From NCBI GenBank assembly GCA_003645255.1, contig QNES01000025.1, forward strand, positions 1 through 35,132: a stretch of 35,132 bases of DNA. The letters run 5' to 3'. The notes below the pieces were generated by a model, which was not told where the DNA came from, did no database searches, and worked only from the letters and a program-made list of their open reading frames with translations. This document shows, piece by piece, positions 1 to 26,389 of the stretch; the first letter of the stretch is position 1, and each line of letters starts with the position of its first letter. The position numbers and the translations under genes are program-made. This DNA comes from Gammaproteobacteria bacterium. GTDB taxonomy: Bacteria > Pseudomonadota > Gammaproteobacteria > Beggiatoales > Beggiatoaceae.

Positions 1-1807
1 AGACTTGGGTAACATCGGCGTGGTGTATAAAAACCTTGGCAAATATCAAAAAGCCAAAAAAGCTTTTCAAGACAGTCTGGCAATTAATATTGCTATAGGC
101 TCAGGAGAAACTTGGCGTTCACAATGTGGTTTAGCTTCCATCGAAGCCAAACTTAATCAGCCCGAACCTGCCATTCAACACTATGAGCAAGCACTTGATA
201 ATATTGAGAAAATCCGTAATTTGCTGCTCAAAGAACATAAAACCTTTTTAACCTCTTTCATGCAAAACAAATTATTTGTCTATGATGAACTGATTGCCCT
301 ATTGCAATCCCTACACGCTATCCAACCGAACCAAGACTATGATCGCAAAGCCTTTGAAACCTTTGAGCGTAAACAAGGGCGCTTGTTTTTGGAAGAAATG
401 GGGCAAAGTGGGGCGCGGCGGTTTGCCGGCTTGAATCCAGAAATTATTGAAGCAGAACAAGCACTTGCCGTTAAAAGGCAACAGGCTCAATCGCCACAAG
501 AACAAACTGCCCTTGAACAAGCAGAAATCCAGTTAAAAGCGCGTATCAAAGCAGAATCTCCCAAATACTATGTCCTGAAATACCCGCAACCGGTTGATTT
601 AACAACGCTACAAAATCAAGTCTTACAACAGGGTGAGATGATGTTGGTTTATGGGGTTTTAAGTGGTGATAAAGAGGAAGGGATAGAAAGCACAACCATC
701 CTATGGGTTATCGGCAAACAACATTTTCAAATGTTCACCCTGCCAGTCGATGAAGACACCTTAAAGCAGGAAGTCGCTCAATTGCGGGGCTATCTTTCTA
801 ACGCCAGTTTTAATAGCGAATTTCTGCCTGCCAGTCTGCACCTATATCAAACCTTGCTGCCAAAAGCAGTACAACAATTGATAAAAGAAGCGAAATTGCT
901 CTATATTGTTCCCACGGGACCTTTATATGGATTACCCTTTGGCTCGCTGGTAACATCCTACAACGCAAAACAAGGTAAGCTTCACTACTTTATCGAAGAC
1001 TATCCGATAAGCTATCTCTCCTCAGCATCGCTGCTCAAAATCATCCGCGACGAAGAAAGCAAGACTGATGCCCAGGAACCGCTATTGGCATTTGCTGATC
1101 CTGAATATCCGCCCTGTGGTGTAGGTGACAAAAAGGGAGCAGAAACCCTTGCCCAACTACGCACCGAATCCTACCTTAAATCAGTTAAGGATGGTTGTTT
1201 TGACCGTTTAGCCGCTACTGCGGATGAAGTACGTAAGATTGCGGATTTATTCAATGCCGATTATAGTAAAGCACTCTATTTAGGAGCCAGAGCCAGTCGT
1301 AGCACCGTATTTGCCCTTAATGACAAACAAGAATTGGATGATTATCGCTATATCATGTTTTCGGTGCATGGCGTTATTCCTAATAAAATCAATAAGATAG
1401 AACAACCCGCCCTGGTTTTATCAAATCCCTTGACCGAAGGCTATTTAACAATGGCAGACGCATTCGCCCTCACACTCAACGCCGATTTTGTGAATTTATC
1501 AGCCTGTAATACCGGCTGTTCTGGAAACAGTTGTAGCGAAAATGTGCGTGGTGCCGGGATTATGGGATTAACCCGCGCCTTTATGTATGCTGGTACCCCC
1601 CGCGTTGCTGTGACTTTATGGTCGGTCGATTTATATTCGGCTAAAGATTTGAGTGTCGGATTATTTACTAATCTCAAAGCAGGGAAAAAAATGGCGCAAG
1701 CCCTACGTGAAATTAAGCTGAAAATGATTCAAGGCAAGGCAAGTAAACAGGTGTATGAGAATCCATATCATTGGGCAGCGTTTGTGGTGTATGGGGATGG
1801 GCAATAA
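1..1807 (+). CDS. TPR-CHAT domain protease-like protein, 5' truncated by window edge
   Basis: Caspase-like CHAT (caspase HetF-associated with TPRs) protein. The reading frame is open to the window edge and the first residues (GNIGVVYKNLGKYQKAKKAF) already lie inside a tetratricopeptide repeat, so the true start is upstream. About 600 residues are visible: one or two TPRs (about 1-80), a helical linker rich in Gln and Glu (about 80-200), then the CHAT domain to the C-terminus. The catalytic dyad is present: His in FSVHG (about residue 455) and Cys in NLSACNTG (about 501). The ending WAAFVVYGDGQ is typical of the family. The portion seen has no membrane segment. Known CHAT proteins are cysteine peptidases or regulators switched on by partners; the substrate here is unknown. 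The next genes encode a nuclease, a FecR-like exported protein and a CHASE2 protein. Confidence 0.9.
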   Translation, partial: DLGNIGVVYKNLGKYQKAKKAFQDSLAINIAIGSGETWRSQCGLASIEAKLNQPEPAIQHYEQALDNIEKIRNLLLKEHKTFLTSFMQNKLFVYDELIALLQSLHAIQPNQDYDRKAFETFERKQGRLFLEEMGQSGARRFAGLNPEIIEAEQALAVKRQQAQSPQEQTALEQAEIQLKARIKAESPKYYVLKYPQPVDLTTLQNQVLQQGEMMLVYGVLSGDKEEGIESTTILWVIGKQHFQMFTLPVDEDTLKQEVAQLRGYLSNASFNSEFLPASLHLYQTLLPKAVQQLIKEAKLLYIVPTGPLYGLPFGSLVTSYNAKQGKLHYFIEDYPISYLSSASLLKIIRDEESKTDAQEPLLAFADPEYPPCGVGDKKGAETLAQLRTESYLKSVKDGCFDRLAATADEVRKIADLFNADYSKALYLGARASRSTVFALNDKQELDDYRYIMFSVHGVIPNKINKIEQPALVLSNPLTEGYLTMADAFALTLNADFVNLSACNTGCSGNSCSENVRGAGIMGLTRAFMYAGTPRVAVTLWSVDLYSAKDLSVGLFTNLKAGKKMAQALREIKLKMIQGKASKQVYENPYHWAAFVVYGDGQ

Positions 1808-1903
1808 GGGCATCTTCGGGCGGTGTTGCAAACGTTGTCCAGTAAAAGTTATAATGACAATGTTTGCAATGCCATACCTTTATTAATAATCAATAACCTT
1901 ATT

Positions 1904-2740
1904 ATGAAAAATACTCCAAAGACTTCCAAAACCCGATGGCATCGCTTGCTAGGAACCTTGTTGAGGACTTTACTTTCACCTGTCGGTATTTTGGTACAAT
2001 TCGATTTTAAGGTGATGACTGAACCGCCCGAAGCGGATATTTTATTACTTCGACGAGAGGGACAAAAATGGACCGCAGAACAGCTATCGCGCCTACCCGA
2101 TGGTATCCGAGATAGCACAGCTCGTCAAATTTTGATCGAATTCAAATATACTGAATCGATTAATGAAGTGGCTTTTCGACAGACGCTAGGATATGATACA
2201 TTTTATAAACGTGCCAATGAATTGAGTGATGTTGAGGTGCAAACGGTTTTAATGAGTGCTAAAACACCCTGCTCTGAAACGCTCACCAAATTTGGTTACG
2301 AGCAGACTGTACATGATGGCGTGTATCGCAGCCAGAACCCATTATTAAAGACGATACCTTTAATTTCTTTGAATGAATTATCCAATGAACCTCACAATGC
2401 GTTTGTGAAATGTTTTGCCAGTCGAAAAAAGGAAAAACAAAAAGCATTTCAACTTTTAAAGGAAGCCCGTTCTTTGATGACGCATCAATTAGAATGGTTT
2501 CTAAGCGGCTTGTGGAAATATTGGTTTTCTAAAAAATTAGGAGAAGATGAGATGGCTGTTGAACTTACCCCAGATGAAGTTTTTGAAATGGGCAAAATGT
2601 GGGGAAGTACGTATTTATCCACTTTAAAAGTGGAAGACGTGTTGCCCTATTTCAAACTGCAAGACATTTTGGCTCAGTTTCAGCTTGATGAAATTGAGAA
2701 GTATGTTAATCATGAAAAAATGAAACCGAAATCGGATTAA
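1904..2740 (+). CDS. Rpn-like PD-(D/E)XK nuclease family protein
   Basis: Probable nuclease of the Rpn / 'putative transposase' PD-(D/E)XK class, common as multicopy accessory genes in filamentous sulfur bacteria. From the ATG at 1904 (278 aa) the fold signature is visible: Asp45 in EADILLL, Glu79-x-Lys81 in LIEFKYT, then Gln93 and Tyr97 in RQTLGY. The C-terminal third is charged and helical. An in-frame GTG at 1823 would add 27 residues, but that extension looks like translated intergenic sequence, so ATG 1904 is preferred; neither start has a clear Shine-Dalgarno. Rpn proteins are linked to recombination, but no activity can be assigned here. The gene separates the CHAT gene from the FecR-like gene and may be an insertion. 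Confidence 0.65.
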   Translation: MKNTPKTSKTRWHRLLGTLLRTLLSPVGILVQFDFKVMTEPPEADILLLRREGQKWTAEQLSRLPDGIRDSTARQILIEFKYTESINEVAFRQTLGYDTFYKRANELSDVEVQTVLMSAKTPCSETLTKFGYEQTVHDGVYRSQNPLLKTIPLISLNELSNEPHNAFVKCFASRKKEKQKAFQLLKEARSLMTHQLEWFLSGLWKYWFSKKLGEDEMAVELTPDEVFEMGKMWGSTYLSTLKVEDVLPYFKLQDILAQFQLDEIEKYVNHEKMKPKSD

Positions 2741-2789
2741 TAGCCAGGGCGAACACGCCACCATTAAGTGTCTGCCCTTAACTTAATGG
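2741..2789. repeat. Repeat fragment plus hairpin after the nuclease gene
   Basis: TAGCCAGGGCGAAC starts directly after the stop codon and matches the start of the palindromic repeat at 18871. It is followed by a 9-bp hairpin CCATTAAGT (2761-2769) / ACTTAATGG (2781-2789). There is no U-tract, so a terminator role is uncertain. Confidence 0.45.
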
Positions 2790-2837
2790 CATTGACCTTA
2801 ACATATACTTTAATTCTGACAAATGAGGATAATTAGT

Positions 2838-3698
2838 ATGAAAAACAAACTACACCTAAGCCTCATCCTAGCGGCTTGCTCATTCAATGCGTTTGCGACT
2901 TCATCGGCAGGCAACATTGATGATTTTGACGGCGAATTCACAGATTATACCATCCAGCGCGGGACTGAAACCATCCCAATGCAGGTATATGCTTCACTTT
3001 ATCCTGGTGATCGCATTGAAATCAGCGGAAATCATTACGTTGACATAATACAATGCGGCGAAATCCATAAAATCACTCACAAAGATTCCCCCTATCCGGT
3101 GCAATCGAAAGAATGCAAAGTGATTGGACTCACCGATAATATCTGGTTGGCGCTCAAAGATTTTGCCAAATATGTGCTAACTATCGCACACAATCCTTCT
3201 GTCGGTGTCCATTTACCGAAATCAGAAGAAGAATCGCTCGCTATGCCCATACTGGACAGGACTTTCCGCGTCATCCCCAGCATAAAAGCAGGGGAACGCG
3301 CTTTAGCCCTTCAATGGTCCGGTGGAAAATCTCCCTACCAAGTCAAAATCACCACAGCCGAAAAAGAGGTATTATGGCAAACTGAGGCAAAAGTCCCCTC
3401 GGTAAAAACGGAAAAGATTCATTTCAAAGCCGAACACACCTATTGGATCATCATCACCGCAGCCAATTCTGCCAAATATCCGCTAAAACGGGAATTTGAA
3501 GCTGTGGCAAAACTGCCCAATTACCCTGCACAGTTGCAAGACAATGCCCTACCTGAAAACATGCGTCGCACCTTACAAGCGGCGTGGCTGGCAGAACCCA
3601 ATCGTGTTAAATGGTCATTTGAAGCCTATCAACAAGTCTTTGATATTGCAGACAATTATGGACCGGCGCGGGAATTGCGGGAAGCGTTAGGGTATTAA
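2838..3698 (+). CDS. Exported FecR-like protein
   Basis: Probably periplasmic or outer-envelope protein of 286 aa. The ATG at 2838 is chosen because GAGGA lies 8 nt upstream and a signal peptide follows directly; an earlier in-frame ATG at 2823 gives a poor N-terminus. The leader MKNKLHLSLILAAC could be a lipobox (LAAC, lipidated Cys14) or be cut by signal peptidase I after FNAFA. Residues about 25-90 (YASLYPGDRIEISGNHYVDI) resemble the FecR beta fold. The rest contains an LQWSGGKSPYQV strand pattern of the kind seen in proteins beside CHAT/CHASE2 genes, then a short helical tail. Role unknown; the context (CHAT upstream, CHASE2 downstream) suggests envelope sensing. The FecR relation is by pattern only. 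Confidence 0.65.
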   Translation: MKNKLHLSLILAACSFNAFATSSAGNIDDFDGEFTDYTIQRGTETIPMQVYASLYPGDRIEISGNHYVDIIQCGEIHKITHKDSPYPVQSKECKVIGLTDNIWLALKDFAKYVLTIAHNPSVGVHLPKSEEESLAMPILDRTFRVIPSIKAGERALALQWSGGKSPYQVKITTAEKEVLWQTEAKVPSVKTEKIHFKAEHTYWIIITAANSAKYPLKREFEAVAKLPNYPAQLQDNALPENMRRTLQAAWLAEPNRVKWSFEAYQQVFDIADNYGPARELREALGY

Positions 3699-3716
3699 GA
3701 TATACGCCGGAGAATT

Positions 3717-3798
3717 GTAGGGTGGGTAGGAATTTCATTACAACCTGCCCCATTTTTCAACGGAACGGTGGGTTTCGCTCTCGCTCTACCCACCCTAC
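3717..3798. repeat. Palindromic REP/MITE-like element
   Basis: 82-bp element bounded by a perfect 13-bp inverted repeat, GTAGGGTGGGTAG (3717-3729) and CTACCCACCCTAC (3786-3798). It sits 18 bp after the FecR-like gene. The GTAGGGTG core is shared with the elements at 16761, 17778 and 18975. Confidence 0.8.
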
Positions 3799-3847
3799 TG
3801 CCACTCTATTTGATTATCTATGACATCGAAAAACAGGTAATTGTAAA

Positions 3848-4180
3848 ATGGAAACCGTAGAAAAATACAGAGTTCACGTTCAGAAACTCCTTGAAAAATA
3901 CGGACATTTTTCATCTAATGATGAGATTGAAACACAAATCATCAGCGATGAAAAACATGATCACTATCAATTAGTTCATGTTGGTTGGTGTAATAATCGG
4001 CGTACTTATGGGTGCGTATTGCATATAGACATCAAAAACGACAAGATATGGATTCAGCATGATGGTACGGAAATCGGAATGGCAAATGAATTTGTGGCAT
4101 TAGGTGTTCCCAAGGAAGACATCGTATTAGCATTTCACGCGCCCTATAAAAGACAATATACTGAATTTGCTATTGGTTAA
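3848..4180 (+). CDS. XisI family protein
   Basis: Full-length (110 aa) member of the XisI family (fdxN element excision controlling factor). Recognised by the conserved C-terminal half: CVLHIDIKNDKIWIQ, HDGTEIGMANEFVALGVPKE, DIVLAFHAPYKRQYTEFA. In Anabaena XisI works with XisH to control DNA excision in heterocysts, but most homologues are in organisms without heterocysts and have no proven function; many are thought to be toxin-antitoxin-like or mobile. The usual partner xisH, an endonuclease-like gene normally just upstream, is absent; what lies upstream is a palindromic repeat. A weak AGGT lies about 10 nt before the ATG. This is therefore an orphan XisI. Confidence 0.85.
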   Translation: METVEKYRVHVQKLLEKYGHFSSNDEIETQIISDEKHDHYQLVHVGWCNNRRTYGCVLHIDIKNDKIWIQHDGTEIGMANEFVALGVPKEDIVLAFHAPYKRQYTEFAIG

Positions 4181-4202
4181 TGATGTATAAATGTCCAACC
4201 GA

Positions 4203-4237
4203 GACCTGACAGGTTTCCAAAACCTGTCAGGTCTTTT
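4203..4237 (+). terminator. Strong hairpin followed by T-run (AACCTGTCAGGTT family)
   Basis: Perfect 14-bp stem GACCTGACAGGTTT (4203-4216) / AAACCTGTCAGGTC (4220-4233), 3-nt loop, then TTTT. It can terminate transcription after xisI. It is also one copy of a palindrome dispersed through the window (6852, 8523, 24075, 31148, 33940). Confidence 0.7.
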
Positions 4238-4279
4238 GGAAGCCAACTACAAACTCCATCAACTTAAAAAGCTCAAAAC

Positions 4280-5734
4280 ATGAAAAAATTACTCCAATGG
4301 CTTATTTTGCTACCATTATTAAAAAAACTCGCGAGAGGGTTAGGGCAAATTTTTCAATTGCCCCTATTTTCTTCTATCAAGAAATCATGGCAACAGTTAT
4401 CGCCCTTTTCTAAAAACGTCGTTTTTGGATTGTTAATTACCGTACTATTGATTGGATTACGTCATGGGCAATGGGTAGCGGAAATTGAAGATTTAAGTGT
4501 CGATTGGATGATGACGCTTTATCGCGGTGACTTGGTTAAAGAAAATACGCCGCCCTTTGTCATATTGGATATTGATGATGACACTTATCAAGCCTGGGGT
4601 GAACCTTTTTTCACACCACGCGATAAGTTATTGAAATTATTACAATTTTCTGTTCAAGCACAACCAAAATTGATTATTGTGGATATTGCTATCGATAAGC
4701 AACCCTATAAAGAGGAAGAGTTGCACCCTGATGATTTAGCCATCCAGCAATATTTGGCTGAATATGAAAAGACGCATTGTAGTCAATCGGATTGCCCTGC
4801 GATTTTATTGGCGCGGACTTTTCGTCTTCCAAAGGGCGTGAAAGCATTTTATCCAAACAGCCCACCCTATTATTTGGCGCAACGCCCCACTTTTTTAGAT
4901 AATATCGTCATGCGCTCCCCCCATATTTATTGGGCAACCACACAATTTGAGCGAGAACATGATCGCCTATTGCGCCGCTGGGATTTATGGACACCGACTT
5001 GCACTCAAAATGTCCCCGATATAATTCCCTCAATGCCCTTATTAGCAGCAGCACTATTAGCTGAAGAAGACGAATCCGATATAGTACTCCCCTGTGCTTG
5101 TCGGTTGCGCCACCACTTGAGTTATTTTCTGCCCAACTGTAATCAAGCACCAAGAGAATGGACAAGCGAAGAGTTAAGGAATAAACCGACAGAATTTAAG
5201 GTTTCTAAAGATTTGGTATTCGACTTGCGCCCAACACGCCTCAGTCGCCGTATTCTATATACGATTCCTTGGTATTTAAGCACTGGCACAAAGCTACCCC
5301 CAGTTGCCGACGGGCGAGATTTACTCACCATTATGTCTGCCGACAAAATCCTGAACAAAAATCCCACTGGTGAAGAATTGCGCGACAGCGTCACCATTAT
5401 AGGTGGCAGTTATATAGAAGGGCGAGATTGGCACGCGACACCGTTAGGCTGGATGCCCGGTATGTTAGTCTTAGTCAATAGCATCCAATCACTACTACAA
5501 TACGGTGTCTTGCACCCGCCTTCCAATTGGTGGATATTATTATTTGCCACACTACTGATTGTGCTAACCAGTTGGCTACTCATCCAATACGGGCAACTAT
5601 GGGGTGCTATTTATTCCGCTTTTTTGATAATCGCACTGATTCCATTGAGTTTTGTGCTATTCAAATATGGTATCTGGCTGAGTTTTGCGATTCCTTGGGC
5701 GGCGGTGCAACTACGGCAACTGATTGATTTTTAA
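4280..5734 (+). CDS. CHASE2 domain membrane protein without output domain
   Basis: 484-aa membrane sensor. After a basic N-terminal segment comes one membrane helix (about 47-64, FGLLITVLLIGLRHG), then an extracytoplasmic CHASE2 domain (about 65-410) recognised by DLSVDWMMTLYRGD, FVILDIDDDTYQAWGEP and the family's closing ATPLGWMPGMLVLVNSIQSL. Three C-terminal membrane helices follow (about 415-480) and the protein ends at once. CHASE2 normally feeds a cyclase, kinase or GGDEF module; none is fused here, so the signal must pass through the helices or a partner, possibly the CHAT protein at the window start. The ligand is unknown. The TAA stop overlaps the convergent nadA stop by 3 nt. No clear Shine-Dalgarno. 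Confidence 0.85.
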   Translation: MKKLLQWLILLPLLKKLARGLGQIFQLPLFSSIKKSWQQLSPFSKNVVFGLLITVLLIGLRHGQWVAEIEDLSVDWMMTLYRGDLVKENTPPFVILDIDDDTYQAWGEPFFTPRDKLLKLLQFSVQAQPKLIIVDIAIDKQPYKEEELHPDDLAIQQYLAEYEKTHCSQSDCPAILLARTFRLPKGVKAFYPNSPPYYLAQRPTFLDNIVMRSPHIYWATTQFEREHDRLLRRWDLWTPTCTQNVPDIIPSMPLLAAALLAEEDESDIVLPCACRLRHHLSYFLPNCNQAPREWTSEELRNKPTEFKVSKDLVFDLRPTRLSRRILYTIPWYLSTGTKLPPVADGRDLLTIMSADKILNKNPTGEELRDSVTIIGGSYIEGRDWHATPLGWMPGMLVLVNSIQSLLQYGVLHPPSNWWILLFATLLIVLTSWLLIQYGQLWGAIYSAFLIIALIPLSFVLFKYGIWLSFAIPWAAVQLRQLIDF

Positions 5735-19268: not shown

Positions 19269-21725
19269 TTACAACCAATTCCCGATCAACAAAAACGCTG
19301 ACCAAAAATAAGGATGTCGATAGCGTTCATATAATTTATCAGTTAGTATCATTTTTTGAGCTTTTTGCAAAGCTTCCGCTTTGGATATATTCGGGTTTTG
19401 TAATTGCCGATAAAATTCAATAACAACTGCTGGGGTTGCTTCATCATCCACTTTCCATAAACTCGCCAAAGCGCTTTGAACTCCAGCTTTTAAAGCGACA
19501 CCGGCTAATCCTAACGCAGCACGATCATCTCCCACCGCCGTTTCACAAGCACTCAAAGTTAATAAATCGACTGGATCATTTTTAAGAATAGTGAGATTCA
19601 TTAAGTCTTCTAGTTTATCCATGCTCAGTTTATCGTTATAAGTTAAAACAAACGTGTTTTTTAAATTTGCACTGAACTGACCATGAGAAGCAATATGTAC
19701 TATAGAATAGGCATTTTCATTCATTTCGGTATGGACTTGAGAAATCGTAAATGCACTATTTAATAAGGGTTGACTAGGTAAATGAAATAACCCTTGTAAA
19801 GTATCTAACTCATATTCGGCACAGGGTAAAGAAGAAAAACCTTGCACCGCATCAGATAAGCCAATTAACAAAATTTTAGCTCGTTTCTGACGAAGCTGGC
19901 TTTTTGGAAAACGGTAACACAAACCTGGACTCAAAACTAACGCATATTTTTCAATGAGGAATTCTTCACCATCATGCAAAGCAGCAAAGGGTATAGTGCG
20001 TAATGCCCCATCGGAGACAATAACTAATGTTTTGATATCATGTAATTGCGGAATAAGTGGTTTAATTAATAAACTATAGAGCGTCTTAGCAGGCTCTAAA
20101 AAGCGATTATTAGTCAATGTGTCCAGCATTTGAACGGTGCTAGCCCGCCATGAGGGTTTACAAGTATCAGCCAATTGATCAGGCATTTGAACCTTTGCCA
20201 GTTGCTCAGGGTTGGGATGGTGGCGCAATGGCGATAAAAAAGAGGCAATAGTATCGCGCAATTTGACTTTAGAGATAGGCACAGTGGTTTGTACCAGCCC
20301 ATCGGATCGTTGGAGTAACAATTCCAAACGTCCAGACAATACAATGGGATAAAGTACTGCCGTTTGTGCATCAAGCATTTGTTCTACATGGGAACATTTA
20401 TTTTTAATAGCAAGGCACTCACTTTGAAAGTAATCTTGCAATTCGGCAGCTTTAAAAGCTTCCATGAGATTTCTAGCTTGCAGCAGCAAGCGATCACGGG
20501 TTGAATTGTTCTGAGCAAAACGAGCTTGCTGTAATAATAAATCCACTAATTCAAAATAGACAGGCATGACTTGTTCTTGAAAATTTTTCGTGATATTGAA
20601 ATAACCCATGTTGGCAACTTGGGTGCGAACTGAACCCAAGTTTTTTATGGCTTCTTGATAAGCCCTGATAGCACCCTGATATTTACCTTGCGCTTTGAGA
20701 ATACGTCCTAGTTGCCACTGCCATAAATATAACTGCAGTTGGGAGCGAGTTTGCCCTGCAAAAAACTGCGCCTGTCGAGTTAATGATAAGGCATCATCAT
20801 AACGTTTAGCTTGTTCATACAATTGCCCTAAATAACCGTTAGCATAAGCTTTTGCTGCGCTATTATCCAAACTAACAGCCACAGCCCGTGCAGCTGTTAA
20901 AGCTTGATAGGCTAGAGAGGTCAATTTTTCAGCCGGTGTACTTAACTGGCTTTGAATTTTTCGGCTCAGTTGACTGATAGCGATTAATCCAAATACTTGG
21001 CTATAGGTTTCTTGTCTGTTTTGGGTAACCGGTAAAGCTTGTTCCAAAGCCGCTATGCTGGCTTTAAAAGCTTGTGCTTTATCATCATGTTGATAAGCCA
21101 TTTCAGTTTCTAAAGAAAAAACCATAAATGCTTGATTAATAAGCACTTTGCTGTACAAAGCCTCAATGTCCTCGTTTGAAAAATGGGAAGCACTTTTTGT
21201 CGAGGATTTGATATATAGTAGGGCTTTTTCATAAGCTTCCTTTGCTCCCTCATAGTCATCCACGGTACTCAAGAAATTACCCTGGTGATTTAAGACTTCA
21301 GCCAATAGTATTGGATTATTGATTTGACGCGCTAACTTAAATGCGGTTTTAAGCTGTCGCAGTGCTTCTTTACGCCAGTTTTCTCCCTGGGATAAACGCA
21401 ATTTACTCAATTCATTGTGCAGAAGAGCATAGTCAATTGGCTCATGTTGTAGAGCAATCGGTAATGCGATATTGATTGTTTTGAGTGCGTTATCATAAGC
21501 ACCCAAGCGTCGATAAGTAGACGCTATACCTAACAACGCCTCTAAACGTTCATTGATTTTCTGGGTTGTAGCGAGTATAGTTTGCCATTGCTCAATAGCT
21601 TGTTCAAAATAGCCGTTTTGGAAAGTCTGTTTAGCTACTAAAAGTGATTGGGCTTGTAGCATATTGATTTTGCCTAAGCACAACATCATAATAAATAAAC
21701 AAAGGTATGAATGGAAACGAATCAT
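19269..21725 (-). CDS. Exported TPR-CHAT domain protein
   Basis: 818-aa CHAT protein with a signal peptide (FHSYLCLFIMMLCLGKINML, cleavage near QAQS), so predicted periplasmic or outer-membrane facing. Residues about 27-420 carry at least five TPRs (for example GYFEQAIEQWQTIL, GAYDNALKTINIALPIAL, DYEGAKEAYEKALLYI, KRYDDALSLTRQAQ, GKYQGAIRAYQEAI). The CHAT domain occupies about 540-818, with the catalytic pair His681 (HIASHGQF) and Cys727 (TLSACETAVGDDRA) and the ending YFWSAFLLIGNWL. His-Cys spacing is 46 residues, the same as in the CHAT protein at the window start. GAGGT lies 7 nt before the ATG. Monocistronic. Target unknown. Confidence 0.92.
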   Translation of the reverse strand: MIRFHSYLCLFIMMLCLGKINMLQAQSLLVAKQTFQNGYFEQAIEQWQTILATTQKINERLEALLGIASTYRRLGAYDNALKTINIALPIALQHEPIDYALLHNELSKLRLSQGENWRKEALRQLKTAFKLARQINNPILLAEVLNHQGNFLSTVDDYEGAKEAYEKALLYIKSSTKSASHFSNEDIEALYSKVLINQAFMVFSLETEMAYQHDDKAQAFKASIAALEQALPVTQNRQETYSQVFGLIAISQLSRKIQSQLSTPAEKLTSLAYQALTAARAVAVSLDNSAAKAYANGYLGQLYEQAKRYDDALSLTRQAQFFAGQTRSQLQLYLWQWQLGRILKAQGKYQGAIRAYQEAIKNLGSVRTQVANMGYFNITKNFQEQVMPVYFELVDLLLQQARFAQNNSTRDRLLLQARNLMEAFKAAELQDYFQSECLAIKNKCSHVEQMLDAQTAVLYPIVLSGRLELLLQRSDGLVQTTVPISKVKLRDTIASFLSPLRHHPNPEQLAKVQMPDQLADTCKPSWRASTVQMLDTLTNNRFLEPAKTLYSLLIKPLIPQLHDIKTLVIVSDGALRTIPFAALHDGEEFLIEKYALVLSPGLCYRFPKSQLRQKRAKILLIGLSDAVQGFSSLPCAEYELDTLQGLFHLPSQPLLNSAFTISQVHTEMNENAYSIVHIASHGQFSANLKNTFVLTYNDKLSMDKLEDLMNLTILKNDPVDLLTLSACETAVGDDRAALGLAGVALKAGVQSALASLWKVDDEATPAVVIEFYRQLQNPNISKAEALQKAQKMILTDKLYERYRHPYFWSAFLLIGNWL

Positions 21726-24145: not shown

Positions 24146-26389
24146 CTATTTAGTCGTAAAAGTGTACACGCCATCCCAGTCTTCACCAGGTGGCTGTTTC
24201 ATAAAGTACTCTATCCTTTGTATATAAAGTCGATATAACGGACATTGAGAATATTGTTTACACAGTGCAATCAATTCGTCTCTCGCCTCTTCCCAGCGTT
24301 GTTGTCGATAATGTGTTAGAGCTTGCTTATAGCGAGCGACTTCTGCCATTAGTGACAGCGCAACTTTGCCATGCAGCCCGATAGGTTGAAAAATGGCAAC
24401 AGGCTGCTCCTTTCCTTTGACTCTAACACAATCTAATTCACGATAAAGATATTCTGGGACTGCCGCCTGAGTCGCTTCACTCACGATAATTTGTACACCA
24501 TATTCTTTCGTAGCCCCCTCTAAGCGTGAGCCTAAATTAACCGCGTCACCTAATACAGTATAAGCCATCCTAAATTGCGAACCCATATTACCAACATTCA
24601 TAATGCCTGTGTTTAAACCAATCCCAATATTAATTTCTGGCCAACCCTTGGCTTTGAATAGCGATTGTATTTCTTTTAGACGTTCTAGCATTTCTAGCGC
24701 GGTATCGATAGCTTGACGTGCATGTTGTGGATCATGTAAGGGGGCTCCCCAAAATGCCATAATGGCATCTCCCATGTATTTGTCAATGGTACCACGATGT
24801 TCGTGAATGGTGCGAGTCATGGGAGTGAGGTATTCATTCATTAATTGAGACAATTCTTTAGGAACTAAGCCCTCAGAAATGTTAGTAAAATTACGCACAT
24901 CTGAAAATAATACCGTCATTTCCCGAGTTTGTCCTTCCATAGAAAATTCACTACCTGGATTTTTACTCATTTCGTCAACCAATTCCGGTGGTACATATTG
25001 TCCAAACAAGCCTGTTAAATGACGTTTATTGCTGGATTCAACGAAATAGCCATAAGACATGTTAAAAATAAATAGGGTTAACATTAATAAAAACGTGGTC
25101 GCTATTGGTAAAACCAGTTGCGAATGCTGCCAAATGTTCACATCAAGCCAAAAAACAAATCCAAAAACGATTATCGTGCCAAGGGTTGCTAACAATGGAC
25201 TCAATAAGGGCAAGACAATAATCATAACCAATCCAATCAAGATTAACAGTGAAACTTCCATCGGAACGAGATATTCAGGATTTTCCATGATTTTATTATC
25301 TAATATACCGGAAATGATGTTGGCATGAATTTCAACTCCTGGATGAAGTTTTTCGACCGGGGTAGCCCGTGAATCCCACAAACCTTCAGCTGTGGTACCC
25401 AGCAATACGATTTTATCCTTAAGTATCTCAGGGTTTTTCACTTGTCCAAATAAGACATCACTGGCTGATACATAAGGAAAACTACCCCGTAAGCCTCGAA
25501 AAGGTATTAAGGTTTGAATATTTTCCGCGACAGGAATCTTTCGATTGCCTACTTGCAAAAATTCTAAACTAGAATAACCGCTTTGCTTCTTAACTAAGCC
25601 TAAGTTAATCTTAGGATTGCCAAGTGCAACGCGAGCAATGGCTAATGAAAGTGATTCATACAACTGCCCTTTGTAACCGTAAAGTATTGGGATACGTCGT
25701 GTAATACCATCTGGTTCTGGAAGGAAATTAAAATAACCTGCTGTCATGGTGCTATTCTGAAACTGTGCTAAATTGGCAGCAAAACCTTTAGCATTGATAT
25801 AACTTAAACGATAATCTTGTATTTCTTGACGAGTCAAAACGGGGGAAGGTAATTGACCGGCTTCAACATTTTGCATACCTTCTTGAGCGATAGTAAAAGC
25901 ATAGCCTAGTATGATTCGACGATTTTGCAGACTTTGGACTAATAGGGCATCATAATCCAGTGTTTCTTCAAGTGTTTTTAAGGTTTTTAAAAAAATTGAC
26001 GCTTCTTTTAAAGGACCTTGCGCCAGTGTTCGTAGTTTTTTTAAGCCTGAACTATCATCAGGTTCAACAAATACGACATCCATACCAAGAATATTAATAT
26101 GGTAAGTGTCAAATAATTGCTCAACCAGTTGAGCTATCACGGAACGATTCCATGGCCAACGACCGATTTCGCTCAAACTTTGTTCATCAATATCGACAAT
26201 AACAATACGAGGATCAATGGTGTTAGGCATGGTCAGTTCTACCCGAACATCATAAGCCTTATATTCTAAAGCATTAATAAAATCCCATTGGAGCATTTTG
26301 CTCGCATGTAAAATAAAAAAGACTAAAATAGTTAAGCTGAACAATAACCGTAAGGCATGGCGTTTGATAACAGCATAAAGTATAGGCAT
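24146..26389 (-). CDS. CHASE2 domain adenylate cyclase
   Basis: 747-aa class III cyclase with a large extracytoplasmic sensor. A membrane helix at about 13-30 (LRLLFSLTILVFFILH) is followed by CHASE2 (about 35-370; RIVIVDIDEQSLSEIGRWPW, DILGMDVVFVEP-like strand, PGVEIHANIISGIL), then three helices (about 375-450), a linker (GLFGQYVPPELVDEM) and the cyclase domain (about 490-680). Metal-binding aspartates are in TVLFSDVRNFT and YMGDAIMAFWG. DKYMGD Lys and VLGDAVN Asp favour ATP over GTP. A C-terminal helical tail (about 680-747) is TPR-like. It probably makes cAMP in response to an unknown envelope signal. No Shine-Dalgarno seen; trpC lies 26 bp upstream on the same strand. Confidence 0.93.
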   Translation of the reverse strand: MPILYAVIKRHALRLLFSLTILVFFILHASKMLQWDFINALEYKAYDVRVELTMPNTIDPRIVIVDIDEQSLSEIGRWPWNRSVIAQLVEQLFDTYHINILGMDVVFVEPDDSSGLKKLRTLAQGPLKEASIFLKTLKTLEETLDYDALLVQSLQNRRIILGYAFTIAQEGMQNVEAGQLPSPVLTRQEIQDYRLSYINAKGFAANLAQFQNSTMTAGYFNFLPEPDGITRRIPILYGYKGQLYESLSLAIARVALGNPKINLGLVKKQSGYSSLEFLQVGNRKIPVAENIQTLIPFRGLRGSFPYVSASDVLFGQVKNPEILKDKIVLLGTTAEGLWDSRATPVEKLHPGVEIHANIISGILDNKIMENPEYLVPMEVSLLILIGLVMIIVLPLLSPLLATLGTIIVFGFVFWLDVNIWQHSQLVLPIATTFLLMLTLFIFNMSYGYFVESSNKRHLTGLFGQYVPPELVDEMSKNPGSEFSMEGQTREMTVLFSDVRNFTNISEGLVPKELSQLMNEYLTPMTRTIHEHRGTIDKYMGDAIMAFWGAPLHDPQHARQAIDTALEMLERLKEIQSLFKAKGWPEINIGIGLNTGIMNVGNMGSQFRMAYTVLGDAVNLGSRLEGATKEYGVQIIVSEATQAAVPEYLYRELDCVRVKGKEQPVAIFQPIGLHGKVALSLMAEVARYKQALTHYRQQRWEEARDELIALCKQYSQCPLYRLYIQRIEYFMKQPPGEDWDGVYTFTTK

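Follow-up and report, generated by a model that had tools for sequence, protein, structure and literature searches.

A recurrent trio of CHAT protease, FecR-like and output-less CHASE2 genes in sulfur bacteria as a candidate extracytoplasmic protease pathway

We analysed a window of 35,132 nt, one entire contig of a 4.4-Mb draft genome, whose first 5.7 kb encode a TPR-CHAT protease, an exported FecR-like protein and a CHASE2 membrane protein devoid of a signalling output. That these three genes belong together is well supported by comparisons of gene neighbourhoods. The trio recurs across sulfur bacteria and in two other proteobacteria and therefore probably constitutes one protein-cutting envelope response system. 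Judging from their sequences, the three genes may well encode a single extracytoplasmic protease pathway, a reading to which we assign a probability of roughly 0.55. Caspase-like genes reach record numbers in large sulfur bacteria, and output-less CHASE2 proteins resemble sensors that serve no purpose; if the proposed reading is true, the module would explain both the abundance of the former and the existence of the latter.

Layout of the region and its inserted genes

The nearest named relatives of the source genome are metagenome genomes of Thioploca and Thiomargarita. The initial annotation had placed the TPR-CHAT, FecR-like and CHASE2 genes on one strand and, indeed, all five genes of the region were found where it had put them, on the forward strand (Table 1). 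Because the window is a whole contig whose edge falls inside the TPR-CHAT gene, the 5' end of this gene is cut. At 5731, a gene of the opposite strand, quinolinate synthase-like by eye, converges head-on on the CHASE2 gene.

Table 1. Features of the first 5.7 kb of the window.
Feature	Position	Strand	Basis
TPR-CHAT protein with clan CD protease domain, truncated 5' by the contig edge	2..1807	+	Pfam CHAT 3.1e-51, TPR
Catalytic His codon of CHAT (SVHG), H456	1367..1369	+	Alignment of module CHATs
Catalytic Cys codon of CHAT (SACNTG), C502	1505..1507	+	Alignment of module CHATs
Rpn/PD-(D/E)XK-like gene of a multicopy family, an insert outside the ancestral module	1907..2740	+	Absent in Thioploca L020
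Small inverted repeat, 9-nt arms	2761..2789	.	
FecR-like protein, exported (signal peptide); N-terminal domain related to FecR, then Ig/FN3-like sandwich and helical C-terminal tail	2838..3698	+	
GTAGGGTGGGTAG inverted repeat with dispersed genome copies	3717..3798	.	
xisI, left over from an xisH-xisI insertion common to the genus	3848..4180	+	Pfam XisI 4.2e-46
AGACCTGACAGGTTT palindrome, one of 12 genome copies	4202..4234	.	
Output-less CHASE2 membrane protein of 484 aa	4280..5734	+	Pfam CHASE2 2.9e-23

A Thioploca locus (L020) presents the TPR-CHAT, FecR-like and CHASE2 genes contiguously, in the same order as the window and with no genes between them. The proteins of the two loci share 45-68% identity overall (63% for TPR-CHAT, about 46-48% for the FecR-like protein and 68% for CHASE2). 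Because nothing separates the genes of the Thioploca trio, the Rpn-like gene and xisI are later insertions, as the initial annotation had proposed, with the Thioploca locus as their common empty site. The Rpn-like gene is a member of a dispersed multicopy family with five matches in its own genome and up to 24 in relatives. Its status as an insert stands, but its designation as a nuclease was a motif call by eye, and we found no usable match for it in Pfam, NCBIfam or the PDB. Copies of XisI that are 93-95% identical occupy the same place in two congeners, one of which (L088) keeps XisH beside XisI, and no XisH adjoins xisI in the window. Since the congener copies are co-located and one of them retains XisH, the genus must have acquired an xisHI pair, of which the window has lost xisH. 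The gene had been described as an orphan, which is accurate for the window but not for this congener. Elsewhere the module is interrupted by different genes, for example BrnA, PIN-like or PDDEXK_2 genes.

The initial annotation had also suggested that palindromes flank the inserted genes. All three inverted repeats exist; however, those at 3717 and 4203 are dispersed genome repeats, and the congeners hold different palindromes in the same gaps. These two palindromes are therefore not the borders of the xisI insertion, and we rejected this role. In one of the congeners (G032), two contig ends carry tandem repeats of about 29 bp (AAGCGTTGGACTCCATTATTCCAAAGCTG; L063 1-227 and L109 1-184), and these ends probably join FecR-like-xisI to CHASE2.

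Recurrence of the trio

Our survey of the order covered 42 genomes, and a family search detected the FecR-like protein in 24 of them. CHASE2 genes were listed independently across the order, and the neighbourhoods of the output-less ones were compared to those of a sample of output-bearing CHASE2 genes after labelling the neighbouring genes with profiles built for this analysis. The counts include only those output-less CHASE2 genes that have 2 kb or more of sequence on each flank (n = 28). A FecR-like gene was found within 1.5 kb and on the same strand for 25 of the 28 output-less genes and for none of the 13 output-bearing genes (Fisher p = 3e-8), although the former count carries some selection because some loci came from the FecR-like search. 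A CHAT or caspase gene was found within 5 kb of 21 of the 28 output-less genes against one of the 13 output-bearing genes, the latter being the second CHASE2 gene of this window. Proteases played no part in the choice of loci, and this count is free of selection. Based on whole-genome counts, a CHAT or caspase gene is expected near a locus by chance in 4-18% of cases; at 18%, the observed 21 of 28 has a binomial p of 7e-11. The initial annotation had proposed the three genes as a single module and had set a gene-neighbourhood comparison beforehand as the check; we ran it and found the module to recur in many genomes, including that of an alphaproteobacterium.

The association is not uniform. 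The protease gene lies on the opposite strand in 10 of 26 loci, so that it is not always co-transcribed with its neighbours. Some FecR-like copies lack CHASE2 and stand alone or beside a response-regulator/kinase gene, and neither partner accompanies some of the output-less CHASE2 genes. A second FecR-like type adjoins a response-regulator/histidine-kinase protein in several loci (L023 8330-14342, on contig C6 of the source genome, and L065-L070), and in the source genome it also lies near an exported TPR-CHAT. A gene for a peptidyl-arginine deiminase is located near the module in one locus (L105). Finally, the window itself holds a second exported TPR-CHAT gene (19269-21725, reverse strand) and a gene for a 747-aa CHASE2 protein whose C-terminus is class III cyclase-like by eye (24146-26389, reverse strand). 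Both were rejected as parts of the module: this CHAT falls in a non-module CHAT clade, and this CHASE2 protein lacks a FecR-like neighbour and ends in a C-terminus of the size of an output domain.

We extended the search beyond the order. With the window CHASE2 protein as query, a single plasmid record was matched, that of the alphaproteobacterium Azospirillum sp. B510, in which CHAT, CHASE2 and FecR-like genes are contiguous, the CHAT protein is a lipoprotein and the FecR-like protein matches our profile at 3e-21. Plasmid searches with the Azospirillum proteins yielded no further record than Azospirillum itself. A class-wide search added one gammaproteobacterial family, represented by genome G177, which has genes for CHASE2 and the FecR-like protein together with a divergent caspase; a sigma factor (a sigma-70 region 2 protein) and a single-pass membrane protein are encoded directly before the CHASE2 and FecR-like genes (L164 9181-12626). 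Two weak matches at the phylum level were FecR-type proteins without CHASE2. The trio is therefore widespread but patchy. Apart from the G177 copy, neither the window module nor any other copy that we examined had a sigma factor gene nearby.

Properties of the three proteins

The CHAT domain of the window protein (PF12770) scored 175 bits against a curated Pfam cut-off of 24, and the catalytic His-Cys pair is kept in all 22 aligned module CHATs. The window CHAT is placed within a supported clade of mostly module CHATs (support 100/99); other module CHATs are spread over further groups of the tree, and the place of the protease is occupied in other loci by caspases or by fused caspase-CHAT proteins. 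At the level of sequence, the protease type is exchangeable, being drawn from several CHAT lineages, caspases and caspase-CHAT fusions. Using signal-peptide and lipobox calls made by a crude script, we identified a hydrophobic signal or a lipobox in 28 of 35 module proteases of relatives versus 134 of 314 other proteins (43%). Most of the module proteases without an export signal are fragments, split genes or proteins with doubtful starts and, in one split CHAT (L063), the signal peptide sits on the upstream fragment. Module proteases of relatives in which the N-terminus is intact are thus predicted to be mostly exported. Because the N-terminus of the window CHAT is missing, we infer its export from the Thioploca protein and from this split copy. 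One Thiomargarita cluster (L022 1223-14932) encodes four exported caspases, CHASE2, the FecR-like protein, an OmpA-like protein, an outer-membrane-like protein and a lipoprotein serpin, thereby bringing proteases and a protease inhibitor together.

The window FecR-like protein has no match to Pfam FecR (PF04773), FecR is absent from the families listed for 42 FecR-like members at E<=1, and the window locus is not among the FecR matches of its own genome. A relationship was detected at the profile level: the N-terminal domain aligned to the FecR profile with hhalign scores of 33.5-34.6, against 13.8 at most in 40 column shuffles, and the profile of the FecR-like family also picks up FecR-type proteins in two other genomes (G584 and G691). 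The label given by the initial annotation holds in this sense only, and the protein is best called FecR-related, a supported remote relative rather than a member of the FecR family. FecR anti-sigma regulators possess a cytoplasmic N-terminal sigma-binding part before a transmembrane segment; this part is absent from the window protein, which begins with a signal peptide instead. The C-terminal half consists of an Ig/FN3-like sandwich followed by a helical tail with a W-x-x-EAYQ motif, which is kept from Thioploca to Azospirillum. Structure prediction from the single sequence gave a pLDDT of 33, and prediction from four sequences was reliable for residues 144-286 only. These residues match Ig/FN3-like structures with Z up to 8.8, a common fold that says nothing of function. 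Sequence searches of the PDB with the FecR-like and CHASE2 profiles returned nothing useful.

The CHASE2 domain (PF05226) scored 83 bits against a curated Pfam cut-off of 26.3. Hydropathy places transmembrane segments at residues 42-60, 417-435 and 443-461, with the large CHASE2 domain between the first and the C-terminal segments and almost nothing left for the cytoplasm; Pfam detected no C-terminal cytoplasmic enzyme or kinase domain. The subgroup as a whole has 0-39 residues after the CHASE2 domain versus 243-468 in output-bearing relatives, which bears out the earlier description of a CHASE2 protein without signalling output. Very long CHASE2 proteins (1045-1942 aa), some with two CHASE2 matches, are encoded near output-less CHASE2 genes or alone in three loci (L108, L111 and L113).

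Proposed pathway, alternatives and known systems

With most of the proteases bearing a signal peptide or a lipoprotein signal, the pathway is probably extracytoplasmic, and no output on the cytoplasmic side is then required of CHASE2. The CHASE2 domain may sense a periplasmic condition such as a ligand or damage to the wall or membrane, and the exported FecR-like/Ig-like protein would be its partner, as ligand, adaptor or inhibitor. A changed state of CHASE2 and the FecR-like protein would then release or activate the TPR-CHAT protease (the caspase in other copies), which would then cut proteins of the envelope. The sigma factor and the single-pass membrane protein encoded beside the module may relay this cut inward in one relative at least. 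The initial reading of a sensor, an exported partner and a protease fits this scheme, but the missing output is not a gap given that the protease of relatives is mostly exported. Envelope stress may be the signal, for which the sigma factor gene beside the G177 copy is the only direct hint. More tentatively, it is possible that the module represents a complete pathway from sensing to cutting, based on caspase-like proteases and located entirely outside the cytoplasm, in which interchangeable proteases are attached to a conserved CHASE2 and FecR-like core; it would be present in at least two bacterial classes and have undergone expansion in the giant and filamentous sulfur bacteria. The proposed pathway would put sensor domain, FecR-like protein and protease together in the periplasm, predicting three partners and a compartment, and Azospirillum sp. 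B510 is a cultivable carrier of the trio.

Alternatively, the module might serve envelope maturation, with the exported CHAT or caspase processing surface or secreted proteins and with CHASE2 and the FecR-like protein serving it as a chaperone or as a platform in the membrane. An analogy is provided by type IX secretion, in which sortase-like clan CD proteases take part. Two-partner secretion exoproteins (TPS domain) are encoded near the module in three loci (L095, L096 and L101), a subtilase beside another copy (L117) and OmpA-like and possible outer-membrane proteins beside others. However, such neighbours are found in a minority of loci, none adjoins the window module and CHASE2 is otherwise a sensor domain, and we consider this alternative unlikely. 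We hold the same opinion of a cytoplasmic relay, in which a regulated-proteolysis switch would free a sigma factor by analogy with DegS-RseA or Csx29-Csx30. FecR-type proteins do act on sigma factors in other systems, and the gene order of G177 is suggestive, but the window module and the other examined copies lack such a neighbour. It is quite improbable that the module mediates cell suicide or defence, whereby envelope damage or phage adsorption would activate the protease and kill the cell in filament-forming bacteria. Clan CD proteases have been proposed as bacterial conflict effectors (PMC8195603, PMC10907252), giant sulfur bacteria hold record metacaspase numbers (PMC4853749) and the Thiomargarita cluster combines four caspases with a serpin; nevertheless, PADLOC found no defence family, only weak TPR-type matches, and periplasmic export is unusual among known abortive-infection proteases. 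Finally, chance adjacency, in genomes that contain many CHAT, caspase and CHASE2 genes and as many as about 50 members of either protease family, is refuted by the neighbourhood counts, since the association far exceeds the expected frequency, is missing for output-bearing CHASE2 and recurs in another class (Azospirillum).

In the open-licence literature, we found no description of a CHAT/FecR-like/CHASE2 trio, nor of a CHAT domain together with CHASE2 or of FecR, caspase and CHAT together. Type III-E CRISPR systems employ the TPR-CHAT protease Csx29 with Csx30 and CASP-sigma (PMC10028731), and a sigma factor likewise lies beside the related G177 module. Unlike the module, Csx29 is RNA-guided and cytoplasmic, and its partner genes are not among the five genes here: Pfam, NCBIfam and PADLOC detected none of Cas7-11, Csx30 and Csx31 among them, on a contig that ends inside the CHAT gene. 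EACC2-caspase proteins, some with a C-terminal CHASE2 (PMC8195603), also link a caspase to a CHASE2 receptor in multicellular bacteria, but they form adaptor-based conflict systems with variable sensors and no FecR-like protein. A metacaspase-CHASE2 fusion of Trichodesmium (PMC3501461, PMC2853523) similarly joins a clan CD protease to CHASE2; there, a single protein with a predicted cytoplasmic protease and no described FecR-like partner replaces the separate genes and exported protease found here. In Burkholderia and Pseudomonas, an operon encodes a LysM-FecR protein and a CHASE2 histidine kinase with a response regulator (PMC5192318), which resembles the module in that an exported FecR-domain protein is encoded beside a CHASE2 membrane protein. 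The CHASE2 protein of that operon carries a histidine kinase, whereas here it is output-less and accompanied by an exported protease gene; the window CHASE2 protein has no kinase domain and no response regulator is found among the five genes. The module combines features of this FecR/CHASE2-kinase operon and of the metacaspase-CHASE2 fusion and differs from each.
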